47,680 bases of DNA, from positions 1 through 47,680 of the IMG/VR virus record IMGVR_UViG_3300025121_000075; one strand, 5' to 3'. This stretch comes from a virus. Below the pieces are notes generated by a model. The model was not told the origin of the DNA, made no database searches, and was given only the letters and a program-made list of their open reading frames with translations. Below, in pieces: positions 14,310 to 47,680 of this stretch. The position numbers and the translations under genes are program-made. Position 1 is the first letter of the stretch. Every line of letters starts with the position of its first letter.

Positions 14310-14434
14310 AAGAAAATTTGACCAGCTGAACCGCTCCGGTCTCTATGGCCGCAGGCTGGAACTTTTCCAGGAGGGGATGATCTTAAAAGTAGCGGGAATA
14401 AGCCTTGACAAATGGAAAGCCGGGGCGAATTTTT

Positions 14435-14566: not shown

Positions 14567-14600
14567 AGTTGACAAAATTAAAGTAACAAAATATCTTTTA

Positions 14601-14720: not shown

Positions 14721-14761
14721 AGGCCAAGAAATAAAACCATCTTTTTACCTAAAGAGGAACC

Positions 14762-17092: not shown

Positions 17093-17271
17093 TGGGTAAA
17101 TTGGACCGTATTCGGGAGATCGTTTTTGGTCTGTGGAGCTTCTTTTTTGTGCTCCTTCCGGGGGGGATTGTCCTGGCTGGGATTATCCTTTTGTTCCTGA
17201 TTTTGGTGCTCAACCAGATCTTCCCCGGCAGTGCGGATGCAATCAGCCAATGGATAGCGGAGGAACAGTGA
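17092..17271 (+). CDS. Small membrane protein upstream of protelomerase
   Basis: 59 residues with a hydrophobic helical stretch covering about residues 12-42, enough for one long or two tight membrane helices, then an acidic end. It is coupled on both sides (TGATG at the start, GTGA at the stop). Why a membrane protein lies between partition and telomere genes is unclear; membrane tethering of the plasmid is one possibility. Confidence 0.65.
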   Translation: MGKLDRIREIVFGLWSFFFVLLPGGIVLAGIILLFLILVLNQIFPGSADAISQWIAEEQ

Positions 17272-18332: not shown

Positions 18333-18396
18333 GGCCACGAAAAAACCCCACCAATCCCCTTCTTTCTTCGCTCTGCACGAAACCGTTTTTAAAAAA

Positions 18397-18431
18397 TTGC
18401 CTTATATTAACCGTATGGTATTTTAAGGCAA
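18397..18431. promoter_or_regulatory. Telomere-like inverted repeat over the late-operon promoter
   Basis: TTGCCTTA (18397-18404) and TAAGGCAA (18424-18431) form an inverted repeat with a 19-base spacer. The left arm TTGCCTTATAT is identical to 47619-47629 of the telomere palindrome. A promoter-like pair TTGCCT-N16-TATTTT overlaps it. The site may bind the protelomerase or another telomere-binding protein as a regulator of the operon that starts at 18453. Confidence 0.5.
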
Positions 18432-18452
18432 AACTTTTTAAGCGGAGGTTTG

Positions 18453-18662
18453 ATGAATTCTTCTTTTGTCCTCACCGACAAACGACGGCGCAAGCGAAAA
18501 AAATACGGAGACCAGATGTCGGTCTCGGTTGGCCTGACTCTGGACCAAACGATCCGGTCAGCTTGGTCCGCCATGGGGTACCGGTCCCAAGGGGAACTCC
18601 TGCGCAAGCTGGTGGAAATCGGCGCCGAGCAGATGCATCTTGGCCACACGGGGGAAGCTTGA
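18453..18662 (+). CDS. Small basic protein at the head of the late operon
   Basis: 69 residues: a basic start (DKRRRKRKKYGDQ), then MSVSVGLTLDQTIRSAWSAM and a helical RSQGELLRKLVEIGAEQ, which reads like a strand-helix-helix (ribbon-helix-helix) DNA-binding fold. GGAGG precedes the ATG at 18453. As the first gene before portal and terminase it could be a late regulator; a small-terminase role is possible but the size is low. Confidence 0.6.
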   Translation: MNSSFVLTDKRRRKRKKYGDQMSVSVGLTLDQTIRSAWSAMGYRSQGELLRKLVEIGAEQMHLGHTGEA

Positions 18663-26686: not shown

Positions 26687-26697
26687 AGGAGCGATTC

Positions 26698-27231
26698 GTG
26701 AGCAAAATGTTTGTGATCCAAAACAACGGTACCAGCCAAACCAGCTTTTTCTTTGAGGTCAAAAACGAAGAGGAAACGGAGCAGGTGACGCTGGTGATCC
26801 CGGCCAGTTTTAACGGCGTTCCCGGCATCAGCCGGGAGTTGAGCGAAGCCGAAGTAAAGGCGTTGCAGGAAGACCCCAAACAAAAGGCCTTTAAGGTTCT
26901 TTGTGAGCAAGGGGTGTTTCTGGTGGTGGAAAAAAAGCCGCAAGTCTCCCCCACCAAAAAGGCGGAAGAGCTGGCCCAATTTGATCCCCAAGGCCCTGCG
27001 GGGCAAGAGATGATCAAAAAGGCCACGGAGCAGGCTCTCGAAGGGTTGGTCAAAAAGCTGGAAGGCCTGGGGCTGACTCCCGAACTGCTCCAACAGTTTG
27101 GGCAATTTAAGGCGGTTTTTGAAGAGGCCAAGGCTATCCTCTCCAAGGTGGAAGCAGCGGCCAAAGCAGTCGATACCAGCGCCAAGGAGGCGGCAAAATC
27201 CGCCGCCGAAGCGAAAAAAAACAAAGAGTAA
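26698..27231 (+). CDS. Hypothetical structural protein with alanine/lysine-rich tail
   Basis: 177 residues from GTG after AGGAG. An N-terminal beta-rich domain of about 75 residues is followed by a long helical region rich in alanine, lysine and glutamate. It lies between the capsid and connector genes, so a head-completion or accessory capsid role is likely but unproven. Confidence 0.6.
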   Translation: MSKMFVIQNNGTSQTSFFFEVKNEEETEQVTLVIPASFNGVPGISRELSEAEVKALQEDPKQKAFKVLCEQGVFLVVEKKPQVSPTKKAEELAQFDPQGPAGQEMIKKATEQALEGLVKKLEGLGLTPELLQQFGQFKAVFEEAKAILSKVEAAAKAVDTSAKEAAKSAAEAKKNKE

Positions 27232-27234
27232 CCA

Positions 27235-27903
27235 ATGGGATTGTTGATCACCTGGGAAGACGTGCTGCTCATCGCAGCGGGGGAAAAGGACCTGGCCAAC
27301 GAGGACAAGTTCACCTTGGACTTGCTGGCCAGGGTTACCGTCACCGATGTTGGGAGCACGTCCTACAACCTAACCTTGTTGGGTCAGGTGATCAGCTTCC
27401 AGCGGCAAGTCGAGGATAGTCTCGCAGCTGTGGCGGCGGGACTGATCCAAGGCATAAACGAATGTAGGCCCTTGGTTGATCAGGCCAAGGCCAAGCCGGG
27501 CCGGTACCCGGACGAGTTCTCCATTTATGGGAAAATCAGTTTGAATTGGTTTGAAGTGAGCCCCGGAACTGGGACGACGGTGGCCCAGTCCCTGGCAAAA
27601 GCGATTGTGTATGGGGGAAGAAGCTTCATCCTCAAGCTCTGCGAAAAGAAGGTACAGGCCTCGGTTTTTGGGGATTTCACCTACGAAGCACAACTGTATT
27701 ATGCGGCCCACCTGGCAGCACAAACCAGGACCCCGGCCCAAGGCAAAGGGAGCCTTTCGGGCCAAAGCTTTGGTGGAGAATCAATGACTTTTACCATGCC
27801 CAACCTCAACCCAAAGGCGGGAGAGGTCTTAAAACAAACCACCTACGGGCAGGCATTCCTCGAACTTTCAAGGGGCTTGGTGTTCCCGATGGTGGTCGGG
27901 TGA
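27235..27903 (+). CDS. Head-tail connector-type protein
   Basis: 222 residues, soluble. The position directly after the capsid block and before the neck genes is that of head-completion (gp6-like, DUF4054-type) proteins. No single motif decides this. The stop overlaps the next GTG. Confidence 0.5.
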   Translation: MGLLITWEDVLLIAAGEKDLANEDKFTLDLLARVTVTDVGSTSYNLTLLGQVISFQRQVEDSLAAVAAGLIQGINECRPLVDQAKAKPGRYPDEFSIYGKISLNWFEVSPGTGTTVAQSLAKAIVYGGRSFILKLCEKKVQASVFGDFTYEAQLYYAAHLAAQTRTPAQGKGSLSGQSFGGESMTFTMPNLNPKAGEVLKQTTYGQAFLELSRGLVFPMVVG

Positions 27904-28286
27904 GCGGTCTGGTGATTGAGGTCCTGATCGAGGAGGACTCCAAAAATTTTGACCAAATGGAAACCCGGTGTTTTGCGGAGGTGCCGTTTGTCGAGATCGG
28001 CCTCCTGGAGGAAAGCCCCAGAGCACAATTCAAGCGGGGGGAAGACCAGATGATCCGCCAAGAGACGGCGGCCTTGCTCCTTCGTGGGCTTGAGTCCAGT
28101 CACATCACGGTAACGACGGACCAGGTGGCAGAGTCGTTGTTGTTGTACTTGATGGAAAACCAAGCCCCGGAACAGGAGCTCAAGATCGTAGGGCAGTTGC
28201 TTGGGGAGGTCATGGCCGGACAAACCAACCCCGCCGCCACCAAGGGAGAACTGAAAAAAGCGATCATTGCCCAGGTAAGAAAGTGA
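27900..28286 (+). CDS. Small neck/accessory structural protein
   Basis: 128 residues from a GTG that overlaps the previous stop. Acidic and helical; the N-terminal GLVIEVLIEEDSKNF reads as a strand. No family recognised. It belongs to the connector/neck cluster by position. Confidence 0.5.
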   Translation: MSGLVIEVLIEEDSKNFDQMETRCFAEVPFVEIGLLEESPRAQFKRGEDQMIRQETAALLLRGLESSHITVTTDQVAESLLLYLMENQAPEQELKIVGQLLGEVMAGQTNPAATKGELKKAIIAQVRK

Positions 28287-28633
28287 CCCCAGATCCGCAG
28301 TTCTTGGATACGATTTTGGATAACGCCGTGCCGGTCGAATTGGTTTCTGCGGGGACGGTTGAGGTCATCCAGGGCCGGGCGACCGGGAGCGAGCAGGTCT
28401 TGCCCCTGGTCGCTTGGCCTCAGCAATCAAGCCCAGAGGAGATTAAATTTGCAAGGCAAGACGGGGACCGAATTGGCGAATGGCTGACGTTTCGTGGTGC
28501 CTTTGACCCGTTGGTCAAGTCTGGGGCTTCCTTACGGTACCGGGGCCGGGATTATCAGATCAGAAAACTTTGGCGGGTACCGGTTGCGGAACCCGTATTT
28601 TACATAGCTGTAGGCTATTGGAGCGAGGCTTAG
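28283..28633 (+). CDS. Head-tail joining (neck) protein
   Basis: 116 residues from GTG overlapping the previous stop. Beta-rich with ASLRYRGRDYQIRKLWRVP near the end, similar in build to phage head-closure/stopper proteins. Probable role: closing the portal and receiving the tail. Confidence 0.55.
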   Translation: MTPDPQFLDTILDNAVPVELVSAGTVEVIQGRATGSEQVLPLVAWPQQSSPEEIKFARQDGDRIGEWLTFRGAFDPLVKSGASLRYRGRDYQIRKLWRVPVAEPVFYIAVGYWSEA

Positions 28634-29251
28634 GTGGACGGATTGCAAAACAACTTCGGCCAGCAGATCAATTCGCTGGTTTTTTGGATCACCGAACTGA
28701 CCGGGTTGGCCCCAAATAGGGTCCTGGACGGGCGTTCGGTTGGTGCGGATCGCCCCAAAAACGAGGCTTACACCTTGTTCTACGTGGTCCACAACGATGA
28801 TGCCGGCCAAATCGGGGTCAAAAGGATCAGCAACGGGGATGGAACCGTGGCGGTCTGGAGGTATCGGCCCAAACAGTTGGGGATCGACCTGCACTTTTAC
28901 AGCCCTGACCACAAGCCGGTCAGCCACAGCGACCAGCCGCAAGACGCCGGGTACTACGCCAGGAGGTTCTCCGCTGGTGTAAAAACCGAAAAAGGAAAGA
29001 CGGCCTTGGCCGAATCAGAACCTTTGTCCGGGCGCTGCGGTGGGTTGGCCCTGCAAGATTTGGCCGGGCCGATCAACCAGGATTTTAGGGAGGAGCAGTC
29101 CTCCGGTTGGGTCAGGCACCAATATCTGGATCTGACCTTGAGTTACACCGAGGTAACCTTGGAAACCCTGCCGGAAATCAACGAAGTCAGAATGACCGGA
29201 ACCGGGGCCGGGGCGGCCCCAAATACGACCATCGCAGTTAACGCCAACTAA
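28634..29251 (+). CDS. Neck/tail-terminator-like protein
   Basis: 205 residues. GTG follows the previous stop directly. It has a first-half helix with FWITELTGLAPNRV, then beta segments and YLDLTLSYTE. The place immediately before the sheath gene is that of the tail terminator in contractile phages. Family (LIC_12616 neck type) is suspected, not confirmed. Confidence 0.55.
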   Translation: MDGLQNNFGQQINSLVFWITELTGLAPNRVLDGRSVGADRPKNEAYTLFYVVHNDDAGQIGVKRISNGDGTVAVWRYRPKQLGIDLHFYSPDHKPVSHSDQPQDAGYYARRFSAGVKTEKGKTALAESEPLSGRCGGLALQDLAGPINQDFREEQSSGWVRHQYLDLTLSYTEVTLETLPEINEVRMTGTGAGAAPNTTIAVNAN

Positions 29252-29259
29252 GAGGACCA

Positions 29260-30897
29260 ATGAACAGCTCCAAATTCGTCAAAGCCCAAACCAGCACGAC
29301 CCCTTCGGCACTTGCCGGAGATGACTTGAGCATCATTCTGTTTCTTAGTGATGTCTCGACCGCCAGCAACTGGGACGGGAAAACGGTCAAAAGTTATTCC
29401 AACCCAGATGAAATCGCCTTGGACTTCCCCGAAAACCACTGGGCCAGGACGGTAGCGGCAAAGGTCTTTGGACAAGTGCCTTCGGTTTCAACCTTGAAGA
29501 TCGGCAGGCGTAACCTCGCCCAAACCATGACCGGGGCGCTGGACGCAGCCGAAGCAGCGGACTCGAAGTGGTTTTTGCTGGTCGGCGCCAGGGGGGAGGA
29601 TATTTTTGAGGCTGGAGATTGGATCGAGGCCAGGGTCCTCAAGTTCGGTATTTATGCCTCGGAAGACCCGTTTAGCTTGGATGCGCAAGTGACCACCAGC
29701 ATCAAGGCCCGGTTTGCTTTGAAGGGTTACAAAAAATCATGCCTGCTTTGGCATCACCAGTCCGGTACCAAGTTGACCGGGGTCAAAATCACGGTTGCGG
29801 CTGGCGTTGCCACCGCCACCGCCGCCAGTGTGGCGCAAGTGGCCAAAGTTGCGGTGGACACGGTCCTGGACTCCACCAACTACACTCTGACCTTCAACGG
29901 GCAAGCGGTCACCTCCAACTCCGGGGTGGGGGCAACGTTCACCACCATCCGGGATGGGCTGATCAACGTGTTTAACCAGCTTCCTGGGGCCATCGGTCTG
30001 GCGGAAGTTGGCGTTGGGGCCAACGAGTTGAAGATCACGGCCATCGATCCCGGCACTCCCTTTACCTTGGCGGCCGTCGCCAACATGACCGTCACCGAGA
30101 CTACCGCCAACCAAACCGCAGAGCACCTTCGCAGGGTGGGGGATCAAGTGGTGATCGAAGGCAGCAGCGCTGCCTTTAACGGCTTGCGGACGGTCAAGGA
30201 GGTGATCCTCCAGAGCAACGGCAAGTCCGACCAATTCACTTTTGACGCTCCCCTGGCGGTGGCCAACGATGTAAGCGGGAACGCTTCGATTGACGGCGGA
30301 TTTACCTACCCGGACGCTGCGGCCGCCGGGATGGGCTTGGCCTTCCCGATGGGCAAGATCGACTGGGCCTTCAAGTCGCTAGGAGGCATCGAGCCGAGCC
30401 CCGAGACGTTGATCACAGAATCGGTCTCGCAGGCGCTGGAGCTGGCCAACTGCAACTACTACACTGCCGTAGGCGGCAGGAACATCCTCTTTGAGGCGGT
30501 CACCGGGTTTGGGATCCCCATCGACCAGATGATCGGCCTGGGCCTTTGGCTGCCCAATTTGATCAAGGGCGACGTGTACGCTCACATCACCGGCCAAAAA
30601 CGCTTTACCTTGGACGACTCCGGGCTTTTGGCGGTCAAGGTGCTGGTGGAGCAATGTCTGGCCAGAGCCCAGGCGGCAGGACTGACCGCTCCCTTTGTCG
30701 AGGACTTTGCCCTTTACCCGGACACCGGGCTTCCGGCTGGGGCCCAATTGGGGGACCACTACGTCGTCAAGGTGCCGCAGCTCAAAGATGTCCCCAAGAT
30801 TGAGCGGGAGGCAGGCAAAGTCCTTTCGGGGATTGAGTACCAGATCCAAGGAGCCAAGGGCTTCCATTTCGTCAACATTTTCGGAAACTTCACTTAA
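29260..30897 (+). CDS. Tail sheath protein (DUF3383)
   Basis: 545 residues. The N-terminal part with SIILFLSDVS, WARTVAAKVFGQ, and LKIGRRN, and the C-terminal GLWLPNLIKGDVYAHITGQK plus GAQLGDHYVVKVPQ are typical of DUF3383 sheath proteins. Between about residues 170 and 330 there is a low-complexity, alanine/threonine/valine-rich beta domain that looks like an insertion exposed on the sheath. The sheath contracts to drive the tube into the cell, which makes this phage a myovirus. Confidence 0.85.
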   Translation: MNSSKFVKAQTSTTPSALAGDDLSIILFLSDVSTASNWDGKTVKSYSNPDEIALDFPENHWARTVAAKVFGQVPSVSTLKIGRRNLAQTMTGALDAAEAADSKWFLLVGARGEDIFEAGDWIEARVLKFGIYASEDPFSLDAQVTTSIKARFALKGYKKSCLLWHHQSGTKLTGVKITVAAGVATATAASVAQVAKVAVDTVLDSTNYTLTFNGQAVTSNSGVGATFTTIRDGLINVFNQLPGAIGLAEVGVGANELKITAIDPGTPFTLAAVANMTVTETTANQTAEHLRRVGDQVVIEGSSAAFNGLRTVKEVILQSNGKSDQFTFDAPLAVANDVSGNASIDGGFTYPDAAAAGMGLAFPMGKIDWAFKSLGGIEPSPETLITESVSQALELANCNYYTAVGGRNILFEAVTGFGIPIDQMIGLGLWLPNLIKGDVYAHITGQKRFTLDDSGLLAVKVLVEQCLARAQAAGLTAPFVEDFALYPDTGLPAGAQLGDHYVVKVPQLKDVPKIEREAGKVLSGIEYQIQGAKGFHFVNIFGNFT

Positions 30898-30906
30898 AAA
30901 GGAAAC

Positions 30907-31356
30907 ATGCCAAACGAACCTGAATTGCTGGCGACCGACTCTTTTCCGCACATCATCGTGACGATCACCAGGGTAAAAAACGGCAAATCGGAAACCTTGA
31001 GCGGGCTCAACGGGATTGAAGTCGCTCGGGCTGCCGGGAAGTACGAAAAAGACGTAAAAATCAGCGAAGACGGCAAAGTGGGGGTCCGCACGGTCAACGC
31101 CAACAGCCGGTCGGGGACGGTAAACCTGGTGCTGGCCCATCACAGCCCCAGCATCGCTTTTTTGAGCGAGTTGGACGCAGCTGACCCCAAGGACGACCTG
31201 GTTGCGATCGACATCACCGACACCATGAACAAAAAAAGCTGGAAGGCCGGTGTGGCATGGCTGTGTGAGTTTGCTACGGCGAACTTGAAAAAAACCAAGG
31301 AAGACCGAACCTTTGCGTTTGCCTCGACATTTCTGAAGATGGACGCCCAAGGGTAA
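30907..31356 (+). CDS. Tail tube protein (DUF3277-like)
   Basis: 149 residues, beta-rich. IIVTITRV, the SGTVNLVLAHHSPS segment and the final FAFASTFLKMDAQG resemble contractile-tail tube proteins, which polymerise inside the sheath. It directly follows the sheath gene. Confidence 0.75.
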   Translation: MPNEPELLATDSFPHIIVTITRVKNGKSETLSGLNGIEVARAAGKYEKDVKISEDGKVGVRTVNANSRSGTVNLVLAHHSPSIAFLSELDAADPKDDLVAIDITDTMNKKSWKAGVAWLCEFATANLKKTKEDRTFAFASTFLKMDAQG

Positions 31357-31361
31357 ACAAC

Positions 31362-31796
31362 GTGGACAAGCCGGAACTCATCACCATCGGGGGGGACCAA
31401 CTCCAAGTCAATTTTGGAGGTAAGCCCCTCAAAGGGTACGCCCAAAAAGGCGTAGTCATCGAGCCAGCAGCCCCCAGGTTTGGAACCAAAAGGGCCCTGG
31501 GCGGGCAGGTGATCCCGGTGATGAGCAGGGACAACAGGGCCAAAGCCACGTTGACCCTGCTTCGAGGTTCCGAAAGCAACTCCCTCTTGGACATGTTAGC
31601 CAAGGCCGACCAGTTTACCGGCAAGGCGGCCTTGCCGTTTATCGCCCACGACAAGGTCAGCGGAGGGTTTTATTTTTCCCTCCAGTCCAGGATCACCAAG
31701 GTCCCAGGGTTCCAAAGCGGGGAGTCGGAGTTGGTCTGGGAGTTCGAGTTGTATTATTTGATCAGCAAAGTTGGTTATATTCCAACCCTAATTTGA
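31362..31796 (+). CDS. Second tail tube-like/tail protein
   Basis: 144 residues from GTG. Also beta-rich, with KATLTLLRGSESNSLLD in a place like that of the tube SGT segment. It may be a tube-capping or initiator subunit, or a diverged duplicate of the preceding tube gene. No family is certain. Confidence 0.6.
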   Translation: MDKPELITIGGDQLQVNFGGKPLKGYAQKGVVIEPAAPRFGTKRALGGQVIPVMSRDNRAKATLTLLRGSESNSLLDMLAKADQFTGKAALPFIAHDKVSGGFYFSLQSRITKVPGFQSGESELVWEFELYYLISKVGYIPTLI

Positions 31797-31802
31797 GGCA
31801 CC

Positions 31803-32399
31803 GTGAAGGGTAAATTTGTTTTATTGTTGCTTGCCTTTGTTTTGGCAGGTGTGGCCCCGGCGTGGGCCGAATGTTGGTTTTTTTGTGGTGCGGCGGAAGC
31901 AGCAAAAGAAAGTCTGGCCGAGAGCTGCGATGCATTGTCCGACCCGGAGACCAAGCCTTTGGACTACTCCTTGGACGGAAGTCTGATTCTTTCCCCGGCC
32001 CAAAGGGCAAAAAGGGGCACCAATCTTTTTGAGGCCTTTGGGGCCGGTGTCAGTTACGGATTAAGCCCTGATTGGAGGCTCTTCGGCAGGTACGGGCAAA
32101 GCCGAACGACGGTCTTAGAAGGCCAAGTGGAGACCCAGGCCCGGACGCTGACCGTCTTGGGTGGGGGCAGTTTTTTGACCAAGCTGCAAGGGGGTAGTTT
32201 GCTTGAGCTGTCTGTGGGCACCGGGTGGGCCGGTGCGGACGGAGAAACCGTCTTTGGCCCTCCTTTGTACCTGCGGGCGCAGTGGTTCCCCTTGCCCACC
32301 CTTGGGGTGTATTATTCGATTCTTGACCTCCGGGCGGCAGATTCCAGGCAACTGGGCTTTGGCCAACTGGGGGTCAGCTTTTCTCTTAACCTCAACTAA
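31803..32399 (+). CDS. Exported beta-rich, outer-membrane-like protein inside the tail operon
   Basis: 198 residues from GTG. MKGKFVLLLLAFVLAGVAPA-WA is a clear signal peptide. The mature part has alternating strands with LFEAFGAGVSYGL, LTVLGGGSFL and the C-terminal GQLGVSFSLNLN, as in small outer-membrane barrels. It sits between the tube and tail-chaperone genes. A virion role is hard to reconcile with a signal peptide, so surface change or exclusion is more likely. Confidence 0.65.
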   Translation: MKGKFVLLLLAFVLAGVAPAWAECWFFCGAAEAAKESLAESCDALSDPETKPLDYSLDGSLILSPAQRAKRGTNLFEAFGAGVSYGLSPDWRLFGRYGQSRTTVLEGQVETQARTLTVLGGGSFLTKLQGGSLLELSVGTGWAGADGETVFGPPLYLRAQWFPLPTLGVYYSILDLRAADSRQLGFGQLGVSFSLNLN

Positions 32400-32409
32400 A
32401 AAGGCCTCT

Positions 32410-33153
32410 GTGATCACTCAAAAGACCCTTTCCATCGGGGAAAACCAGTACAAAATCCAAAGCCTCCCGGCAATTGCGGCCTTGGCGTACAAGGCAAAAT
32501 TGCTGAAACAGTTGGCCCTGATCGGCAACGACGTGACCAGCGCCGGGGATCTGCGTGATTATTTTGTCAACAAGGTTGGCGGGGAGGCGTTGGGGGAGGA
32601 AATTTTTAAGCAGCTCGGATCCAGCCCGCTGGCCAAAAAACTGGAGCCCTTGCGGGGCAAAACCTTTTCCGGGGCCCAGGAACTCATCACGGCGGTGACC
32701 GTACAGATGGGCCGTGAATTAAACGAAAAGGAAACCGCCCAACTTTCGGAAGCGCTGGGAAAAGCGAAGTTCGGAAAGGACCGGGTCTCGGACGTACTTT
32801 TTGGCAACCCAGAACAGATGTTTGGAGTTGTGACCAAGCTGTCGAAGCGGCTGGACGACCTGGAAGTCCAAGAGATATTCTGGGGGGTTTTGGGTAGGTC
32901 TTTGATTTATGCCTGCGAGCTGGGGGCAGACGGTGCGGAAAAAAACAAGGCCAGCTTCCAAGCCAAGGACGACAAGGCCCTGGACCAATGGTTTTCAAAA
33001 AAACTTGATGAAGCGGTAATTCTTTTTTGTGAGTGCCTGGTCTTCAACTATTCCAGTTTTCTCGAAGGCCTCAAAAAAAAAGGGAACTGGAAAGAGATTG
33101 TCCAGCGGATGGGGATCAAGCTGGAATCAGGAACCCCAGATCAGAACGACTAG
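32410..33153 (+). CDS. Tail assembly chaperone, frame-0 product
   Basis: 247 residues from GTG at 32410. Helical, with an N-terminal SIGENQYKIQSLPAIAAL resembling tail-assembly chaperone starts in contractile phages. It precedes the tape measure gene, as lambda G does. Near its end is a run of nine A followed by GGG, a slippery site leading into the -1 frame. Confidence 0.75.
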   Translation: MITQKTLSIGENQYKIQSLPAIAALAYKAKLLKQLALIGNDVTSAGDLRDYFVNKVGGEALGEEIFKQLGSSPLAKKLEPLRGKTFSGAQELITAVTVQMGRELNEKETAQLSEALGKAKFGKDRVSDVLFGNPEQMFGVVTKLSKRLDDLEVQEIFWGVLGRSLIYACELGADGAEKNKASFQAKDDKALDQWFSKKLDEAVILFCECLVFNYSSFLEGLKKKGNWKEIVQRMGIKLESGTPDQND

Positions 33154-33338
33154 AGCGCCTGCTCAACGAGTCGTGGGACGAGGAACTTTCGGTGCTGCGG
33201 TTGGTTGTCACCGAAGGTTCAAACGTTACCCTAGCAGACCTGGAGACCCGGCTGACGCTTGAAGACGTGTTCAAATTGCAATTGTACCTGGAATTCCAAA
33301 AAACGCCGTTTTACAGCCTAAAAACCGACCAAAGGTGA
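33081..33338 (+). CDS. Frameshift extension of the tail chaperone (G/GT type)
   Basis: The nine-A run at 33073-33081 followed by GGG allows a -1 slip after codon 224, and the new frame stays open to 33338, giving a fusion of about 309 residues. The extension adds about 85 residues (RELERDCPADG...). This frame has no convincing start or ribosome site of its own after the frame-0 stop. Programmed -1 shifts at this place are conserved in long-tailed phages. Confidence 0.75.
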   Translation, partial: RELERDCPADGDQAGIRNPRSERLERLLNESWDEELSVLRLVVTEGSNVTLADLETRLTLEDVFKLQLYLEFQKTPFYSLKTDQR

Positions 33339-33342
33339 CCCA

Positions 33343-35229
33343 GTGGCCAGAACTCCCGCCAACCTATCAAAGCTGCTCAAGTCCTACGCCGTCCAGATCA
33401 AGGTCATGGTGGACAAGGCCTCGACCAACGAGGTTCGCACCCAGATCAGGACCCTGGTCAACGGGTATGGAGAGCTTTTTAAGGCAGCAAACAGCGCCAA
33501 AGCGGCACAAGCCGCAGAGCTTAGGGGGCAGGCCCAAGCAGAGCAGGAAAAGCTCAAGATGGCCCGGCTTGCCGAGCAGATCGAACAAGAAAGGCTCAAA
33601 ACGGCAACGGCGGCAGTAAAGGTCAAACAGCAGGAGTCCAAAGCGAATGCGGAAGCGGCCAAGGCCGCGGCGATCTCCGCCAAGACCCAGCAGGAGATGA
33701 ACATCAAGGGGGCCAAAGGGCTGGTTGACATCCAGACCAAACTGGAGCGGCACCAACAAGCCATCAACATCCAAGCCTTGAAGTTCGCCAGATCCCAAGA
33801 ACGGGCACAGGGATACCTGGAGATCGCCAAGAACAAGGCCAAGGAACTTGCCCAAGCGATCCAAGCGGTGGCCGGGGCCGTTGGGGCCACCCAGGCCCTT
33901 AAGTTTTCCGTTGATTCGGTAGGGATTGCCTCGGGGATCGAAAAGGACAAGACCGCCTTGGCCGGTTTGCTGGGCCCCGAGGGGATGGGGGAGGTCGAAG
34001 CCAAGATCGAAAAGATCAAAAAGAGCACCAACAACGTCATCTCCGGGGAAGAGATCACCAGGGCGGCGGTTGAGTACGCCCAGCTGGACCGCAACGTGAC
34101 GAGGTTAAACAAGTCCTTGGACTACGCCACTGTAAAGGCGGCGGTCTCGGGGCGAAGTTTCGCCGAAGTCATGAAGGCTCAGTCCGACTTTATCCGCGGC
34201 GGAAATATCGGCAGCCTAGAGGGGTTGATGGACCCCGAACTGCTGCGGCGGATGCAGTTGGCACAGATCAACTTCACCAACACCTCCTTGGAGGCAAGGC
34301 ACAGGTGGCTCCGGGAGAACATCAAGCTCACCCAAAACGAGATCCACACCTACCAGACCACCCAAAACAAGTGGGACAAGAGTATGGACCGGGCCAAAAA
34401 CAAGTGGGCGGCCATCAAAGAAAGGCTCGGAAAGGAGTTTGTCCCCATTTTGAACGTTTTGGTCAACAGCTTGACCCGGGTGTACAATTTTTTGGACCGA
34501 ACCGACAGTTTTGGCGCTGTGGCGATGATCGTGGGCGCCGGGGTCGCCGTCTCTGGCTTGGTGGCGGCTTTGGCGGTCTTACCTAGCGTGATTGGCGGGT
34601 TACAGATGCTCGCAAAAGTTGGAAGCATTTCAAAGGTCGCTGCCGCAGGTTTGTGGATCTACCACGGTGCGGTCAAGGCGGTGACCCTTGCCACTTGGGG
34701 CATGAATGTGGCCTTGGGGGCCTTTCATGCTTTGGCGGCGATCTTGGAGGTCCCGGTCCTGGTCGTGGTCGCCTTGATTGTGGGCTTGGTGGCTTTGGGA
34801 TGGCTGTTGTGGGAGGTGTTTAACGACGAAGAGAACCAAAAGAAGATCATGGAGTTCTGGAATTCGGTCAAAGAAGCGGTCAAAGCGGCCTACGAGTGGG
34901 TGGAAAAGTTGGTCAGTTCGGTGTTGCCAGACTGGATCAAAAATCTCCACATCCCCAGCCTGGAGGGGGTGATCAACTACTCCGCCGAGGGGATCGGCGG
35001 CGTAGGCTCGGTGGTCGGAAACCTTTGGTCGAACCCTTATGGGCCACAAATACCGGCCCCGGTAAACTCTCCCCAGACGGTCATCGACCAGTCGAAATCG
35101 ACGTTGATCAACATCGGCGGGACCAGCATCACTGCTAATTCGGGGATGAGCGCCGAAGAGGTAGGGGGGCTGGTTAAAAAGGTGGTGGTTGAAGAGATGC
35201 ACAAGAACTCGATGGGAGCGATGCCCTGA
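33343..35229 (+). CDS. Tape measure protein
   Basis: 628 residues from GTG. A long coiled-coil first half rich in alanine, glutamine, lysine and glutamate (about 40-200) is followed by a helical part, then hydrophobic segments (about 390-500) that may insert in the host membrane, then a glycine-rich end. This layout and the position after the chaperone are diagnostic. It sets tail length; 628 residues implies a rather short tail. Confidence 0.85.
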   Translation: MARTPANLSKLLKSYAVQIKVMVDKASTNEVRTQIRTLVNGYGELFKAANSAKAAQAAELRGQAQAEQEKLKMARLAEQIEQERLKTATAAVKVKQQESKANAEAAKAAAISAKTQQEMNIKGAKGLVDIQTKLERHQQAINIQALKFARSQERAQGYLEIAKNKAKELAQAIQAVAGAVGATQALKFSVDSVGIASGIEKDKTALAGLLGPEGMGEVEAKIEKIKKSTNNVISGEEITRAAVEYAQLDRNVTRLNKSLDYATVKAAVSGRSFAEVMKAQSDFIRGGNIGSLEGLMDPELLRRMQLAQINFTNTSLEARHRWLRENIKLTQNEIHTYQTTQNKWDKSMDRAKNKWAAIKERLGKEFVPILNVLVNSLTRVYNFLDRTDSFGAVAMIVGAGVAVSGLVAALAVLPSVIGGLQMLAKVGSISKVAAAGLWIYHGAVKAVTLATWGMNVALGAFHALAAILEVPVLVVVALIVGLVALGWLLWEVFNDEENQKKIMEFWNSVKEAVKAAYEWVEKLVSSVLPDWIKNLHIPSLEGVINYSAEGIGGVGSVVGNLWSNPYGPQIPAPVNSPQTVIDQSKSTLINIGGTSITANSGMSAEEVGGLVKKVVVEEMHKNSMGAMP

Positions 35230-35777
35230 TGTTTGGACTCCTCGCTTTTGAGCCCAGTTTTCAGGCGGAACTGCCGTTTCGGCGGCTGGCCGTGGACGGC
35301 ATGGTCCGGGAGTCCCACAAATACAGCTCCAAAATCGCCCAACACCCGGTCGAGGAGGGTAGCCCCGTTACCAGCAACATCCGTTTGTTGGCGCCGGTCT
35401 TGGAGATCGAAGGGATCTGGACCGACACCCCGGTCCAGTTCGTCAACGCCCTTTTTGGGACCCTGAACAGCTCCGAGGGCCGGTCTGTCGAAAAGGTGTT
35501 GGATCTGATTGATTTGAGGAACAAAAAGAAGCTTTTCGACATCGTCACCAGCCTGGGGGTGTACAAGAACTATTTCTTCCAAGAGCTTACGTTTCCAAGA
35601 GAGGTGGAGGACGAATATTCGAGCCGCTTCACCGCCACGTTGGTCAAGATCAACTACGTCAAGGCCGCCTTCGGGGTCAGGACCATGATTGGTTTTGGGG
35701 TAGAGGATACATTGGGGCCGATCAAAGAAGTGGGGGCTGTAACCCCGCAGTCGGTCCCACTCAAACTTTGGGGTTAA
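35229..35777 (+). CDS. Baseplate (Dit-like/LysM-region) protein
   Basis: 182 residues, ATG overlapping the tape-measure stop (TGATG). It resembles the phage tail N-terminal domain found right after the tape measure in DUF3383-type phages, with VLDLIDLRNKKKLFDIVT and a mixed alpha/beta content. It is expected in the tail hub between tube and baseplate. Confidence 0.6.
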   Translation: MFGLLAFEPSFQAELPFRRLAVDGMVRESHKYSSKIAQHPVEEGSPVTSNIRLLAPVLEIEGIWTDTPVQFVNALFGTLNSSEGRSVEKVLDLIDLRNKKKLFDIVTSLGVYKNYFFQELTFPREVEDEYSSRFTATLVKINYVKAAFGVRTMIGFGVEDTLGPIKEVGAVTPQSVPLKLWG

Positions 35778-36125
35778 GTGAGCGCCATTTATACCGTCCA
35801 AAACATCCCCGTCTTTCGTGGGGCGAGGCATTATGCCCAGGACGTGGTCTTGGACCGGGTGATGTACCGGTTTGAAATTTTGCGCAACGACAGGGACAAC
35901 GGGTTTTATCTGGACCTGTGGTGTGGACAAGAACTGGTTGCGGCCGGGATCAGGCTGGTATCCGGTCACGACCTCTTAAAGCCGTATAGCCACAACAAGC
36001 TTCCTCCAGGGAGGCTTTTGGTCGTTGATCTGGACGCAAAGACTCCTGGGGCGGAGGGCTTGGGCAGAGACCCGGACCCGGAAACCTTTGGAGACCGGGT
36101 GATCTTGGTTTATCAGGGGGTGTAG
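35778..36125 (+). CDS. Small baseplate plug-type protein
   Basis: 115 residues from GTG, beta-rich with DRVMYRFEILRNDRDNGFYL and PPGRLLVVDLD. Small proteins of this build (cyanophage plug family) lie between the hub genes in related phages. It is not coupled by overlap but abuts the previous stop. Confidence 0.6.
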   Translation: MSAIYTVQNIPVFRGARHYAQDVVLDRVMYRFEILRNDRDNGFYLDLWCGQELVAAGIRLVSGHDLLKPYSHNKLPPGRLLVVDLDAKTPGAEGLGRDPDPETFGDRVILVYQGV

Positions 36126-37001
36126 GTGGAACCTTCAAGCCTGTTTGGTTGGATCTACGAATTGGAGATCACCCCCTTTCGAGGGGGACTGCCGTTGGTG
36201 TTTACCGAACTGCGGGTGGAGTTCGAGATCAACAAGGTCATAGGTGCGGATCTGGACCGGGCCAATTTTAAGGTCTGGGGCATGGGCCCCGACACCAGGG
36301 AAGCGGTGGACCAGCCGTTTAACGCCAATCTGCAAAGAGGCTCCAAGCTGGCGTTTAAGGTGGGGTACGAGTCCTCGGGCCTGTTGGCTCTGGTGTACAA
36401 AGGTGAATCCATCGAGGTGCGGAGCTGGCTGGAGGGGGAAGATTGGGTCACATATTTTGACACCGCCACGATGTACGGGGCACTGGCGGTGGACACGCTC
36501 ACGGAGTCCTTTAAGCCTGGGACCGGGGTGATTGACGCCCTCAACAAGGTGGCCGGTAAAAATGGTCTCCAACCCAGTTTTTTTGGGGAGGTTTCGGCGT
36601 TCGTCAAGAAGCGGTTCATCAACGGCAAAAGTTTTACAGGAAACCTCAAGGCGTTTTTAAAGGAACTGATGGCCGACGTGTCCGGGATGTTTGAGATCAC
36701 CGTCACTAGTGAAGGGGAGATGCAGGTGACCCAGTTCGGGATGCCCAACGGTGATCGTCCGGTGGCGCTGCGCAGCGACACGGGGTTGTTGGGGGCGCCG
36801 GAGCCGTCTAGGACCGGTTGTAACCTAAAAACCCTGATCGACCCCAGGATCAGGCCCGGAACTCCGTTGGTGGTGGTGGCAAAGTCGCTCTTGCATTACG
36901 GGCAAAACTACACCGCCACAAAGGTAACCCACCGTGGAGACACCCACGGGGCAGAACTGTTGAGCGAGGTCGAAGCCCTTTTTTTTCCCCCGAGGTTTTG
37001 A
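36126..37001 (+). CDS. Baseplate hub protein
   Basis: 291 residues from GTG. Beta-rich domains with LRVEFEINKVIGADLDRANF, GVIDALNKVAG and VVVAKSLLHYGQNYTATKVTH follow the order of gpD/gp27-like hub proteins. The hub forms the trimeric adapter for the spike, encoded next. Confidence 0.7.
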   Translation: MEPSSLFGWIYELEITPFRGGLPLVFTELRVEFEINKVIGADLDRANFKVWGMGPDTREAVDQPFNANLQRGSKLAFKVGYESSGLLALVYKGESIEVRSWLEGEDWVTYFDTATMYGALAVDTLTESFKPGTGVIDALNKVAGKNGLQPSFFGEVSAFVKKRFINGKSFTGNLKAFLKELMADVSGMFEITVTSEGEMQVTQFGMPNGDRPVALRSDTGLLGAPEPSRTGCNLKTLIDPRIRPGTPLVVVAKSLLHYGQNYTATKVTHRGDTHGAELLSEVEALFFPPRF

Positions 37002-37633
37002 TGCGGCCTGGAAACGAAAACGCTATGAAGATCGTCTTGGAACGGTGGTTCGACAAGGTCATGGACGACCTAAACGTCAGCTGCCCGGCGACGGTGGTGG
37101 CCTACCACGCCGCTTCGGGAACGGTGGATGTCCAGCCAACGGTCGGCACGAAAGGGGAAGACGGACTCCCGGTGGTTCCCCCGGTTCTTCATGAGGTGCC
37201 GCTCAGGAGCCCCAGGACTATAAAAGCCATGATCCGGATGCCGATTGGTGTCGGGGATCTGGTGGACCTGATTTTCACCAATAAAAGTTTGGAAGAACAC
37301 CAGTCCGGGGCCGGGATAGCTCCGGTTTTTCCGCTGTCAAAACGGCGGCACAGCTTGTCTGATTGTTACGCCATGCCCCAGGGCGAAACCAAGGGCAACC
37401 ATACCCCTTCTTTGGCCGAAGGCCATCTGGAGGTGATCCTTACCCCTGGGACCAAGCTGCACATCGGCAACGGGGCCGATGATCTGACCTCGATCCTCTC
37501 TGACCTGCTGGCGATCCTAAAAGGACCGGTGGCGATGGGTGGCGTGGCCTTCCCTGGTACTCTCAACCTGGTCAACCAACCGCTGGGCCCTTTGGACCTA
37601 GTGGAACTGCGGTTGGCCCAAATCCTGGTTTAA
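37001..37633 (+). CDS. Baseplate spike (Gp138 N-terminal type)
   Basis: About 210 residues from the ATG at 37001, overlapping the previous stop. PATVVAYHAASGTVDVQP, then IRMPIGVGDLVDLIF, and SLSDCYAMPQ are typical of the Gp138/Mu-gp45-like OB-fold spike. The spike trimer pierces the outer membrane. The C-terminal part is a probable beta-helix needle. Confidence 0.75.
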   Translation: MRPGNENAMKIVLERWFDKVMDDLNVSCPATVVAYHAASGTVDVQPTVGTKGEDGLPVVPPVLHEVPLRSPRTIKAMIRMPIGVGDLVDLIFTNKSLEEHQSGAGIAPVFPLSKRRHSLSDCYAMPQGETKGNHTPSLAEGHLEVILTPGTKLHIGNGADDLTSILSDLLAILKGPVAMGGVAFPGTLNLVNQPLGPLDLVELRLAQILV

Positions 37634-37635
37634 AC

Positions 37636-37893
37636 GTGGCGGGAACAACTTTAATCCAAGACAAAAGCTACAGCAGCTTTTCGGAAATTGAAGCGGACAT
37701 CAACACCGTCTTGGCCGGGGTCAAAGGGGACGCCTTCGGCGATGCCACCTTGGCCAAGAACCTGACCAAAATCATGGAGAACCTGGTGGGAAGCCTCAAG
37801 GGGACAAGCACGGTCAACGGGCCAACAGACCCCTATGGCGGGATGATCCCAGGGGCAACGGGAACGATCAACAAAGGAGGGATCACGCTGTGA
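37636..37893 (+). CDS. Small baseplate-region protein
   Basis: 85 residues from GTG, soluble, mostly helical with a glycine/threonine-rich end. It lies between the spike and wedge genes. No family recognised; possibly a spike tip or chaperone. Confidence 0.55.
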   Translation: MAGTTLIQDKSYSSFSEIEADINTVLAGVKGDAFGDATLAKNLTKIMENLVGSLKGTSTVNGPTDPYGGMIPGATGTINKGGITL

Positions 37894-37970
37894 AACTGGA
37901 AACCTTGTACCTTATCTTGTACCTGAGCCCCTTCGCCGCCTTAGCGATCATCATCCGGTTTTGGCCGTGA
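37890..37970 (+). CDS. Very small membrane peptide ORF
   Basis: 26 codons from a GTG overlapping the previous stop, ending by overlap with the next GTG. The peptide (KLETLYLILYLSPFAALAII...) is one hydrophobic helix. GGAGG lies upstream. Both overlaps of the GTGA type argue that it is translated. Confidence 0.5.
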   Translation: MKLETLYLILYLSPFAALAIIIRFWP

Positions 37971-38335
37971 AAGACCTCAAAGAAGTGATCGTAGGCGGAA
38001 GGCCTGTTTTAATTTTAAGTGCGGCCAAAGACCTGGAGCTTGCATCCGGATCCCAATGCACGGCCCAACTGGCCCGTGCCTCGGTGCAGATGATCCGGGG
38101 GGAGTGGTTTTTGGACCGGACCTTGGGGCTGCCGTTGTTTGACGAAGAGATGACCCGTGGGAAAAACCTTCCCATTGCCAAGGCCCATTACCGCAGCGCA
38201 ATCGAGCAGACCCCCGGAGTGACGGCGCTTAAAAGTTTGGAGATCAACCCCAAGGGGAGCAGGGTAGAAGTCGTTTTTGAGGCGATCACGGACACGGGAG
38301 AGCAGATCAACAACAACGGAGTAAACGGTGGGTAA
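37967..38335 (+). CDS. Baseplate wedge protein (gp25/GPW-like)
   Basis: About 122 residues. The final half has EWFLDRTLGLPLFDE and later AIEQTPGVTALKSLEI, with NPKGSRVEVVFEA, the shape of gp25-like wedge proteins found before baseplate J. It begins with a GTGA overlap on the small membrane ORF. Confidence 0.75.
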   Translation: MKDLKEVIVGGRPVLILSAAKDLELASGSQCTAQLARASVQMIRGEWFLDRTLGLPLFDEEMTRGKNLPIAKAHYRSAIEQTPGVTALKSLEINPKGSRVEVVFEAITDTGEQINNNGVNGG

Positions 38336-39527
38336 TTTGATTTTTGAGGGGCAAGAATACGGACTTTTAGAGACCGGATTGAGGATACCGCCCTTTAACG
38401 TGCTGCAAAAAATACTGGAGGCGGACCTCAAGGCCGTTTTTGGGAACGACATTGCGCTGACTCCGACCTCAAAATTCGGCCAATTTCGGGACGTGTTGTC
38501 CGAGCGAATGTATCTGCAATTTGAGGCACTTTTGGCGCTTTACAACAGCCTGGACCCGGAGTTGTCCACCGGGCAGGCCTTGGAGCGAAACTCCCACCGG
38601 ATCGGGGTTTACCGGAAAAAGGCGCTTCGTAGCCGGGCCCCTGTGCTTCTGAGCGGTTCCCCCGGCACGCTGGTCCCCAAGGGCAGCTTGGTGGCCCACA
38701 ACTCAAACGGGGTCCAGTACCGGCTCGTTGAAGACGTGGTGATCGGTGCCGGTCCGACCGGCCTTGATACCCTCGGCAACGTGGCCCAATTGGAATCGGT
38801 GGAGCACGGTGAATTTATTGCGGCGGCTGGTAGTTTGTCGGTGATCCTCACCCCAAGGTTTGGCTGGGACGGGGTCAGCAACCCCTTGGACGCAACTCCT
38901 GGCCGCTTGGCCGAGACCGACCCGGAACTGAGGATCCGGCGGGAACAAACCCTGGTTTCCGGCGGAAACGGCAAGGCGGATGCAATGAATGTCCAGATCG
39001 GAAACTTGGCCACGGTCACGGCGGTAACGTATTTCGAAAACACCACGGACCAAGCGGACGGGCGGGGGCAAGCGGCCCACAGCCTGGAATTCTTCGTGAT
39101 CGGCGGAACAGAGGCCGAGATTGCGGCCCTGCTTTGGCTCAAAAGGGGAACCTTCGTTAACTTCCAGGGCAACACCTCCGTGACCGTCAACGACTCCGAA
39201 GGGTACCCGCAGACGGTCCGGTTTTCCAGGCCCTTGTTGGTGGAGATATGGGTGATCGCCGAGATCCAAACCGGCCCCAGCTACCCGGCGGGAGGGGACG
39301 ACTTGATCAAGGCCAACCTTTTGGCCAGAGGTTCGGCCCTGGGGATCGGGGACGACGTTGTGGTGGACCCCTACCTCAAAGGAGCGCTGGCAGACATCCC
39401 CGGTATTTTGGGGGTCACGTTGAAGGTGGGGACGGCCCCATCCCCTACCCAGAGTGCCAACATCCCCATCGACATCACCGGGATCGCAGTGTTTGCGACC
39501 CCAAGGATCACGGTGGCCCATGTTTAG
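38328..39527 (+). CDS. Baseplate J-like wedge protein
   Basis: 399 residues from GTG overlapping the previous gene. SRAPVLLSGSPGTLVPKGSL, then LAETDPELRIRRE and IPGILGVTLKVG are hallmarks of the J/gp6-like family, which forms the outer wedge ring of the baseplate. The gp25-J-DUF2612 gene order confirms it. Confidence 0.88.
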   Translation: MGNLIFEGQEYGLLETGLRIPPFNVLQKILEADLKAVFGNDIALTPTSKFGQFRDVLSERMYLQFEALLALYNSLDPELSTGQALERNSHRIGVYRKKALRSRAPVLLSGSPGTLVPKGSLVAHNSNGVQYRLVEDVVIGAGPTGLDTLGNVAQLESVEHGEFIAAAGSLSVILTPRFGWDGVSNPLDATPGRLAETDPELRIRREQTLVSGGNGKADAMNVQIGNLATVTAVTYFENTTDQADGRGQAAHSLEFFVIGGTEAEIAALLWLKRGTFVNFQGNTSVTVNDSEGYPQTVRFSRPLLVEIWVIAEIQTGPSYPAGGDDLIKANLLARGSALGIGDDVVVDPYLKGALADIPGILGVTLKVGTAPSPTQSANIPIDITGIAVFATPRITVAHV

Positions 39528-39536
39528 GAGGAAGCG

Positions 39537-40253
39537 GTGAAATTTATTGCTGACCACCAGGGGGAATCAGTATCCAGGCTACTTTCGGCCTCCAAGGGGA
39601 ACCTGGAATTTGTGGGGCTGGTGCGGGCGGCGGTCAGACCGTTGCAACTGACCGAGGACCTGATTGCGGCGATGTGGGACGGGCTGCACCTGGACCAAGC
39701 GGTCGGAAAACAATTGGACCTCGAAGGAAAGCACTTCAAGGAGCAGAGAGGTGGCCGGACGGACGAGGTTTACCGGGCGGCCCTGGGCGGGAAGTGGGGG
39801 GAATACCAACAGTCCGGGGAGCCGGAGGTCCTGATCCCCATTTTTAAAGGGCTGATCGGTGCCTACCGGGTCCGCTGGATCGATTGGGAGGTCCACCGCA
39901 GCCCGGTCGTGGAGATGATCGCTTATTTGACCGTCAACCAAAAAACAACAGAGACCCTGAGTGGCATTTGCCGGACGGTTAAAAAGTCTGCCCAAAACGG
40001 CGGGGATATGCGGTTGGCCTTTTTTACCGACCAGACCCTGGACCTGTTTGTGCCCCATGAACTGAGTTTTTTTGAGGAGGTGTTTTTTTGTTTTTTGTTT
40101 GCTTTTATCGGCGAAGCGACCGGCCCCAAAAACGAATTTGTTTTTGAGGGCGAATCTCTGGAACTGCCGCAATTTCAGTTTTTATCCAACGAATCCCTGC
40201 CGGTTGGGTGGGATGATTCTTACAGGCAACTCTCTTTTTACCTCAAACCATGA
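39537..40253 (+). CDS. Tail/baseplate protein (DUF2612-like, gpI position)
   Basis: 238 residues from GTG after AGGAGG. LDLEGKHFKEQRGGRTDEVY is the DUF2612-type signature (genome partner of J), followed by a helical part and a hydrophobic FFEEVFFCFLFAFIGE stretch. It is expected to link the wedge to the tail fibre. Overlaps the fibre gene by ATGA. Confidence 0.7.
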   Translation: MKFIADHQGESVSRLLSASKGNLEFVGLVRAAVRPLQLTEDLIAAMWDGLHLDQAVGKQLDLEGKHFKEQRGGRTDEVYRAALGGKWGEYQQSGEPEVLIPIFKGLIGAYRVRWIDWEVHRSPVVEMIAYLTVNQKTTETLSGICRTVKKSAQNGGDMRLAFFTDQTLDLFVPHELSFFEEVFFCFLFAFIGEATGPKNEFVFEGESLELPQFQFLSNESLPVGWDDSYRQLSFYLKP

Positions 40254-41875
40254 ACAAACAAATCAAACCCAATTTTGTTCCTACCTGGGCAGAAAACGGA
40301 ACGAATGTGACCGCTCCTTCTGTCGGTCAGGCGGATGTAGGGCTAAACCCGGCAACCTTTCGCAGTCTGTTGGGGGACCACTTCAACCATCTTTTCCGGG
40401 AAATTTACCGCTGGATCCGGTTTTTGTCTCGGACCTCCAGCCCTAAAGACGAAATCCTTTCGACCCGTGTGGCGGTGGAAGATTCCATGCAGTCCGCCAC
40501 CATTTGGTACGACTCCGCCTTGGGGGTGTTTAAAGACGCAGCCGGGGCCCCAGTGGTTTTGCCTGCCGGGGCGAGGGTGCGGGTTGACGGGGTGGACGCC
40601 TTGACCGCCGACTTGGTGTTCCCCGCTGCCGTGGAGCTGGAGTTTATGGCCGAGGTCAACCTTGGCGGCCACGGCCTGACCTTGGCCGACGTTCGGGGCG
40701 AAATCCGGGCGACCGGCGGCACCGTCACCTTGGGCGGCAACAGCGAGGCAACCAAGATCAGCGGGGCAGCCCTGACCGTCACCCAAGGGCCGGGGTTTTC
40801 GGGGAGTTACTTTTTGAACGGGGTGCTGACCAGCCCCGCCGAGGCGGCGCAGGACAGCCGGATCGAGGTTTTGGGGGGCCGGAAAAACCGTCTGGACAAC
40901 GGCTGGATGGACCTGTGGCAGCGGGGGACGGATACGGGTGCGGGGCATTCCGCAATTAAATTTGTAGCCGATCGCTACTTCAGCGAAGCCTCTGGGTCCA
41001 GCTACCAGACCCGCCAGTCGGCGGTGGCCCTGGGGCTGATCGCTGACGGCTGCCCCAGGTACGCAATGGAGACCCTGGTCACGTCCGTGGCCGGGGCCGG
41101 AAACTTTGTCCGGGTGGGGCAGCGGATCGAAGGGGTCTGGAGTTTTTGTAACACCCTAGCGACCTTTAGTTTTTGGGCCAAGGCCAGCGTTGCCGGGAAG
41201 TCGGTGGCGGTGGAGGCGGTCCAGCACTTTGGCACCGGCGGCGGCAGTGCGGAGGTCACCGGGATCGGCGTGACCAAGCTGGCCCTGTCCGGCGGGGCAG
41301 ACTGGACCCGCTACCAAGCCACCTTCACCCTACCCAGCCTGTTCGGCAAGGTGCTGGGCACCGGGGCCGATTGGCTGGAGGTACGGATCTGGCTGGATGC
41401 CGGGGCGACCTTTGATGCCCAAACCGGCGGCTTGGGCCAGCAGGGCGACTGGTCTTTCTTTTGGACCCTTCCCCAGCTGGAGCCAGGGGCCTACGCCACC
41501 AGGCGGGAGCAGCGGTCTTTGGCCGAGGAATTGGCCGGTTGCCTGCGGTATTTTTGGCATTACGAGGATGATAATGGGCAGGCCATGGGAAGCGGATGGG
41601 CCGACATGGGCACACAGACATTTATCTTTCTGAACTTACCTGTGCCCATGCGGGCGGCTCCTAGCCTCACTGGTTATAGTCCCGTAGGCAGCTGGCTGGT
41701 CGCAGGCCCAAACATTGGTGGGCAGGCGGTCTCCGGGGTCAGCCTCCCCCAGTCCAGCCCGTATACCGCAGTCATCAACTTTACCCGGTCGGCCTCCGCC
41801 ATTTTTCCACAACAACCGGCCCATGTTTACCCCAACGGCCAGACCGCATATCTTGAATTTTCTTCGGAGTTGTAG
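40250..41875 (+). CDS. Tail fibre with carbohydrate-binding-like C-terminal region
   Basis: 541 residues. The N-terminal part probably attaches to the baseplate. A beta-rich shaft (about 70-220) follows. From about 240 it reads like the jelly-roll module common in phage fibres (NRLDNGWMDLWQRGTD, RIEGVWSFCNTLATFSFWAK, QQGDWSFFWTLPQLEPG, then LAGCLRYFWHYE). This module binds cell-surface sugars, so the gene likely sets host range. It ends the late operon. Confidence 0.8.
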   Translation: MNKQIKPNFVPTWAENGTNVTAPSVGQADVGLNPATFRSLLGDHFNHLFREIYRWIRFLSRTSSPKDEILSTRVAVEDSMQSATIWYDSALGVFKDAAGAPVVLPAGARVRVDGVDALTADLVFPAAVELEFMAEVNLGGHGLTLADVRGEIRATGGTVTLGGNSEATKISGAALTVTQGPGFSGSYFLNGVLTSPAEAAQDSRIEVLGGRKNRLDNGWMDLWQRGTDTGAGHSAIKFVADRYFSEASGSSYQTRQSAVALGLIADGCPRYAMETLVTSVAGAGNFVRVGQRIEGVWSFCNTLATFSFWAKASVAGKSVAVEAVQHFGTGGGSAEVTGIGVTKLALSGGADWTRYQATFTLPSLFGKVLGTGADWLEVRIWLDAGATFDAQTGGLGQQGDWSFFWTLPQLEPGAYATRREQRSLAEELAGCLRYFWHYEDDNGQAMGSGWADMGTQTFIFLNLPVPMRAAPSLTGYSPVGSWLVAGPNIGGQAVSGVSLPQSSPYTAVINFTRSASAIFPQQPAHVYPNGQTAYLEFSSEL

Positions 41876-47497: not shown

Positions 47498-47598
47498 AAT
47501 GAGGCAAACATTAAAAGCAATAAATAAATGCACAATAAATACGCATAAAATCTAGAAATATGTTGAAAATAATACAGGGAAAAAATTGCCTCATTTAT
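47498..47598. repeat. Right telomere flank with GAGGCAA/TTGCCTCAT motifs
   Basis: AATGAGGCAA (47498-47507) and TTGCCTCATTTAT (47586-47598) are inverted copies of one motif also found in 1-250 and inside the palindrome. AT-rich; no gene. Confidence 0.6.
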
Positions 47599-47680
47599 CC
47601 AGTAATTTGAGGCAATATTTGCCTTATATAATAATATTATAATATTATTATATAAGGCAAATATTGCCTCAAATTACTGG
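47599..47680. other. Telomere (telRL) palindrome, 82 bp, protelomerase target
   Basis: A perfect palindrome centred between 47639 and 47640, 41 bases per arm. Each arm runs CCAGTAATTTGAGGCAAT, then ATTTGCCTTATATAAT and AATATTA at the centre. This is longer than the 56-bp N15/phiKO2 telRL and the 42-bp PY54 core. Cleavage about the centre would leave two hairpin ends, 47639 and 47640. The window stops exactly at the palindrome end, so it is unclear whether it is a true molecular end read through the hairpin or an opened circle. Confidence 0.9.

Follow-up and report, generated by a model that had tools for sequence, protein, structure and literature searches.

N15, phiKO2 and PY54 combine a protelomerase, a palindromic, AT-rich telomere flanked by inverted repeats, ParA, an anti-repressor and the logic of a plasmid prophage, and the published description places the protelomerase gene immediately beside the telRL site (PMC10612081). 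Across N15, PY54, VP882, phiHAP-1, VP58.5 and Valp1, the centre of the target site (tos) lies only 141–193 bp from the start of the protelomerase. The marine contractile-tailed telomere phages (VP882, phiHAP-1, VP58.5, VHML and Valp1) are likewise characterised by a protelomerase, ParA and motif-rich flanks, have palindromes of 24–92 bp and prophage contigs that end in snap-back palindromes, and keep the tos beside the gene in the four that were examined (VHML being left out). A different layout is found in the linear phage-like plasmids of the cyanobacteria Stanieria (pSTA7437.04) and Chondrocystis (plasmid5), which encode short telomere resolvases (335–336 aa) internally, kilobases from the ends, with a large terminase gene following the resolvase in Stanieria. 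The compact enzymes TelA (Agrobacterium) and ResT (Borrelia) act on bacterial chromosome and plasmid telomeres rather than on those of phages, and their genes are not known to lie beside the telomere.

The virus record IMGVR_UViG_3300025121_000075, classed as linear in IMG/VR, shares traits with each of these systems; the window analysed here is the entire record, 47,680 bp in length. We consider it very likely that the record is the linear phage-plasmid prophage of a contractile-tailed temperate phage, whose closed hairpin telomeres are formed by its own protelomerase. Phage genes co-occur in it with a protelomerase and a partition gene (tailed-phage functions and ParA by Pfam and PHROG), and the structural genes (portal, large terminase, major capsid protein, sheath, baseplate and fibre) occupy the rightmost two thirds:

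7149–8102, minus strand: anti-repressor Ant (phrog_524, 5e-50), pointing to a temperate lifestyle
10006–13554, plus strand: DnaG-type primase/replication protein, 1182 aa (CHC2, DNAG_N and Toprim; phrog_6444)
13800–14745, no strand: candidate internal region for replication or partition (inverted repeats of TCCCCATTTTCCCCA, arrays of 8-bp repeats, GC-skew minimum close by)
15002–15679, plus strand: ParA-type partition ATPase (Pfam AAA_31/CbiA), first in the gene run that ends with the protelomerase
15564–17092, plus strand: two ORFs (15564–16121 and 16118–17092) between ParA and the protelomerase
17133–18299, plus strand: protelomerase (telomere resolvase), 388 aa, GTG start (PF16684; TelA in the PDB; Foldseek)
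18563–21465, plus strand: portal and large terminase, immediately 3′ of the protelomerase (phrog_146, phrog_38)
25529–41875, plus strand: major capsid protein, contractile tail sheath, baseplate and tail fibre (phrog_264, 205, 196, 6, 4492)

ParA, the primase and the anti-repressor together make up the gene set of a phage that is temperate and maintained as a plasmid. The two ORFs that follow ParA had no match in Pfam and PHROG searches, and the terminase is only distantly related to those of known phages. Within the candidate replication region, TCCCCATTTTCCCCA repeats at 13811–14060 are both direct and inverted and lie close to the GC-skew minimum, making them a candidate origin; tandem arrays of 8-bp units at 14434–14740 (also at about 14255–14290), beside ParA, contain about 17 copies of TGAGCAAA, about 18 copies of AGAGCAGA and a few of GTAGCAAA, and are possibly a centromere or iterons. 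A leftward gene cluster at the left end encodes an SNF2-type helicase and a D12 adenine methyltransferase (332–2092, 3065–3913). A second copy of the virus (L002, 26.5 kb) is identical in sequence where compared, protelomerase included; it starts within the 8-bp array at 14434, and the right end of the record is unmatched in it.

The presence of a protelomerase gene, first proposed in an earlier sequence-only reading of this DNA, is agreed upon by Pfam, PDB sequence and fold comparisons. The product scores 107 bits against the ResT/TelK catalytic domain (PF16684; curated cut-off 27) and finds TelA among PDB sequences (E = 1.7e-11). Its AlphaFold model (mean pLDDT 73) retrieves TelA (1.4e-10), TelK (1e-8) and ResT (2.2e-6) with Foldseek, the top eight structures all being protelomerases that rank above all integrases; TelA and ResT, compact as is the enzyme of the record, are its best relatives of solved structure. 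R240, R241, K275, R344 and Y383 are invariant across 94 aligned family members, the record's enzyme included, and the catalytic Arg, Lys, Arg and Tyr are all kept. The position of TelA His394 (for the roles of active-site residues in TelA, see PMC3558466) is taken by Gln372 here, in place of the His found in the other 93 of the 94 members, and catalysis could therefore be altered. Only five residues follow the nucleophile Tyr383; a frameshifted C-terminus was considered and rejected, the overlapping ORF being unlike a protelomerase tail.

At 388 aa the enzyme is much shorter than those of N15-type phages (about 630 aa), and the record further differs from these phages in its contractile tail and its replication protein, for which BLASTP against N15 RepA (gp37) gave no significant match, the record encoding a DnaG-type primase instead. 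Identity to other family members is at most about 31%. The enzyme shares about 20–30% identity with those of the marine telomere phages and is not nested in their clade; in the protelomerase tree it falls outside the N15, VP882 and Valp1 clades, on long branches that make its placement unsure, such that the sequences would suggest a deep branch, depth being all that we claim from the tree. (An alignment of seven diverse protelomerases, tried as the query for the collection scan, proved too divergent.) The nearest layout to that of the record belongs to the linear phage-like cyanobacterial plasmids, although their resolvases share only 24–28% identity with it, their termini are of other kinds and the Stanieria terminase is GpA-type. 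Of these two plasmids (L024 and L025), L024 has the GpA-type terminase and a tandem array at one end, and in L025 one 240-bp sequence stands at both ends in opposite orientations.

The right end of the record is a perfect palindrome of 82 bp (47599–47680), in which, as had been noted from the letters, 41 of 41 bases are mirrored, about a dyad between 47639 and 47640. Those that follow it in length measure 22 and 20 bp, a search across the window for a second perfect palindrome of at least 24 bp found none, and a chance origin (expectation about 4^-41 per position) is excluded. The true length of the palindrome is undefined because it stops exactly at the contig edge; it is possible that 82 bp is k − 1 for an assembler k of 83. 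The end regions have a GC content of 24–27%, compared with 42–63% in 1-kb windows across the record.

We calibrated the meaning of such palindromes on contigs of known telomere phages, using a profile of the N15, PY54, VP882, phiHAP-1 and Valp1 enzymes (80 loci in IMG/VR) and 39 selected IMG/VR contigs with one end close to the protelomerase gene. Perfect terminal palindromes of 18–126 bp were present at 16 of the 39 gene-proximal ends, a fraction that is not a population estimate because the contigs were chosen for a gene near an end, and at 8 of the 39 opposite ends. For 15 of the 16 contigs with a gene-proximal palindrome, the distance from the tip to the start of the profile match is 155–352 bp (724 bp in the remaining one, L114). 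Three contigs (L099, L100 and L102) share one telomere, identical over the 130 bp inward of the tip, and yet end in palindromes of 68, 102 and 42 bp. A contig with the Valp1-type enzyme (L114/L134) finishes on both sides in a perfect palindrome of 94 bp, the outer sequences of the two being different, whereas the palindrome at tos in the Valp1 phage genome is only 30 bp; the two Valp1 tos flanks match the L114/L134 ends at 89% and 81%, compared with 40% for the cross-matches. These two cases show that such terminal palindromes consist of both strands of a single arm, read round a closed hairpin. In the literature, hairpin ends are recognised by reads that pass the end of a linear replicon into its other strand (PMC13293297).

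Applied to the record, this read-through rule makes 47640–47680 most likely a snap-back and means that a junction from 47680 to 1 is not to be assumed:

47599–47639, minus strand: right telomere arm, with the hairpin tip most likely at 47639/47640 (perfect terminal palindrome, the signature found at hairpin ends of known telomere phages)
47640–47680, plus strand: probable snap-back, the opposite strand of 47599–47639 read round the closed hairpin, with no new sequence (exact reverse complement; calibration contigs)

The proposal that the 82 bp are themselves the resolution site is not supported by this comparison, as a single telomere can end in palindromes of different lengths, all longer than the one present at the site before resolution. 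The survey also turned up internal perfect palindromes of about 290–860 bp or more near seven protelomerase genes (L057, L065, L079, L083, L094, L110 and L120), which we read as assemblies that ran far round a hairpin, and a 92.5-kb contig, the two ends of which are L080 and L081, that is apparently a palindromic dimer of one phage.

Motifs were said to recur in the two end regions, and they do: GGCAATATTTGCC occurs exactly at 20 and 47611 (mirrored as GGCAAATATTGCC at 47656) and TTGCCTCAT exactly at 156 and 47586. Together the flanking motifs build two arms in mirror order, each of which, read outward from its end, gives GGCAANNNTTGCC, GAGGCAATTTWTTCC and TTTGCCTCAT (motifs A, B and C), and none of the three has an exact copy elsewhere in the 47.7-kb record:

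1–208, plus strand: left subtelomeric arm, homologous to the outward-read right arm (local alignment score; shared order of motifs A, B and C)
20–32, plus strand: motif A GGCAANNNTTGCC, left arm
51–65, plus strand: motif B GAGGCAATTTWTTCC, left arm
155–164, plus strand: motif C TTTGCCTCAT, left arm
47499–47508, minus strand: motif C TTTGCCTCAT, right arm (exact only at 155, plus, and 47499, minus)
47578–47592, minus strand: motif B GAGGCAATTTWTTCC, right arm (exact only at 51, plus, and 47578, minus)
47611–47623, minus strand: motif A GGCAANNNTTGCC, right arm (mirrored at 47656–47668; exact only at 20, 47611 and 47656)

The outward-read right arm aligns locally to 1–208 with a score of 82, which none of 1000 and none of 2000 shuffles reached (maxima 66 and 69), and the GC-containing 10-mers common to both arms are significant; a plain count of 9-mers shared between the AT-rich arms (equalled in 446 of 2000 shuffles) and a gapless alignment of the two are not. 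Motif A is 31 bp from motif B in both arms. Its start lies 17 bp inward of the right tip and, on the other arm, 20 bp inward of the contig end, which places this left contig end at or near the left tip; the contig probably reaches this hairpin tip or misses it by a few tens of bp. Against the hairpin reading, the left end has no snap-back and its opening bases do not reproduce the right tip core, only GGCAAATAT (positions 1–9) being equal to right-arm positions 17–25. In known telomere phages the tip core is common to both ends, whereas only 9 bp are common here; alternatively, the GGCAAATAT match may fit a shared tip core of which 16 bp are missing, as at the truncated far ends of two calibration contigs (L123 and L138). 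Elsewhere, pairs of motifs A and B gave 26 matches, roughly the chance number, with none in protelomerase contigs and none with a terminal palindrome, and exact patterns from both ends, searched for a second assembly of these ends, matched no other viral contig.

The likeness to an N15 tos holds in part: the right end has the character of a protelomerase-phage telomere, and repeat arms are present on either side, but the site is not beside the gene as in N15, the ends lying 17.1 and 29.3 kb from the protelomerase. In the gap between protelomerase and portal there is an imperfect inverted repeat (18396–18432, TTGCCTTATAT...TAAGGCAAA) that resembles a telomere centre and is not significant genome-wide; as a tos relic 3′ of the protelomerase it was rejected, other sites in the genome scoring equally, and it is possibly an operator or a relic.

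The strongest competing explanation is that the molecule is circular or circularly permuted, that 47599–47680 is the whole of an unresolved tos, and that 47680 joins 1, the assembler having broken the sequence at the palindrome. The two flanks would then be the inverted-repeat arms expected on either side of a tos, unresolved sites of 88–92 bp are known in VP58.5 and phiHAP-1, and joining would set successive GGCAANNNTTGCC sites (47611, 47656 and 20) at spacings of 45 and 44 bp. It would, however, also put the left A–B module 44 bp farther from the dyad than its right counterpart, whereas treating the ends as separate gives nearly equal positions for A and equal A-to-B distances; moreover, the terminal palindromes of telomere-phage contigs are read-through of arbitrary length, and IMG/VR classes the record as linear. 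We regard the circular arrangement as unlikely, and the 47680/1 junction, on our analysis, as probably not a genuine piece of DNA; the telomere reading is supported, and an 82-bp circular-junction tos of the N15 type is not.

A variant that we hold to be somewhat less probable again starts from the position of the protelomerase between the partition and the portal/terminase genes, without an adjacent tos, from which a use of resolution in packaging may follow. Telomere resolution by the Gln372 enzyme, on non-identical tips, would here be part of packaging, and the particles would contain hairpin-ended DNA, in contrast to N15-type phages, which circularise by cohesive ends and resolve tos after infection. 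We give little credence to an assembly or amplification artefact, in which a chimera would have snapped back at some arbitrary contig end that is no telomere: such a chimera would likewise yield a palindrome ending exactly at the contig edge, but none of 40 unrelated contig ends had a terminal perfect palindrome of even 18 bp, and the palindrome here lies outermost on arms whose mirrored motifs are unique, in a record that has a protelomerase. Other kinds of hairpin or inverted-repeat ends (from rolling-hairpin replication, or as protein-primed terminal repeats), in which the protelomerase homologue would act as an ordinary recombinase, are barely credible, since, for all that Gln372 and the very short tail after Tyr383 allow a changed chemistry, the fold search places TelA, TelK and ResT far above any integrase and a rolling-hairpin virus is at odds with the presence of primase, ParA and tailed-phage genes.

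For the preferred reading, that of a linear prophage with hairpin telomeres, we propose the following mechanism. Replication from an internal origin near 14 kb would proceed round the hairpins to give a head-to-head dimer, which would carry right–right and left–left junctions that are perfect palindromes by construction. The protelomerase would bind these symmetric, AT-rich replicated junctions, whose arms contain GGCAANNNTTGCC, GAGGCAATTTWTTCC and TTTGCCTCAT, cut both strands near the dyad and rejoin each strand to itself, yielding hairpin-ended monomers. With the right tip at 47639/47640, sequencing that passed round the tip would have produced the repetition of 47599–47639 as 47640–47680.

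A scan of one genome per species in 84,980 bacterial and archaeal species found a sole close relative of the protelomerase, a truncated N-terminal copy with 53–55% identity (53–62% for L026, 9969–10474) on a contig of a Candidatus Lambdaproteobacteria metagenome-assembled genome whose GC content, 56% according to its name, is close to that of the phage. No intact protelomerase was found in 52 genomes of this phylum. This copy hints at a relic and, as a sequence match, offers a lead to the host and not an assignment; we know of no telomere phage from this host group.

For metagenome assemblies, these results provide a rule: where a contig finishes in a perfect palindrome, it marks a hairpin end, the palindrome's length is without biological meaning, and its far side is not to be joined to base 1. 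The rule can be used for finding hairpin-ended replicons in public assemblies. For the telomere phages themselves, a small set is joined by a deep, previously undescribed branch in which the enzyme is uncoupled from its target site.
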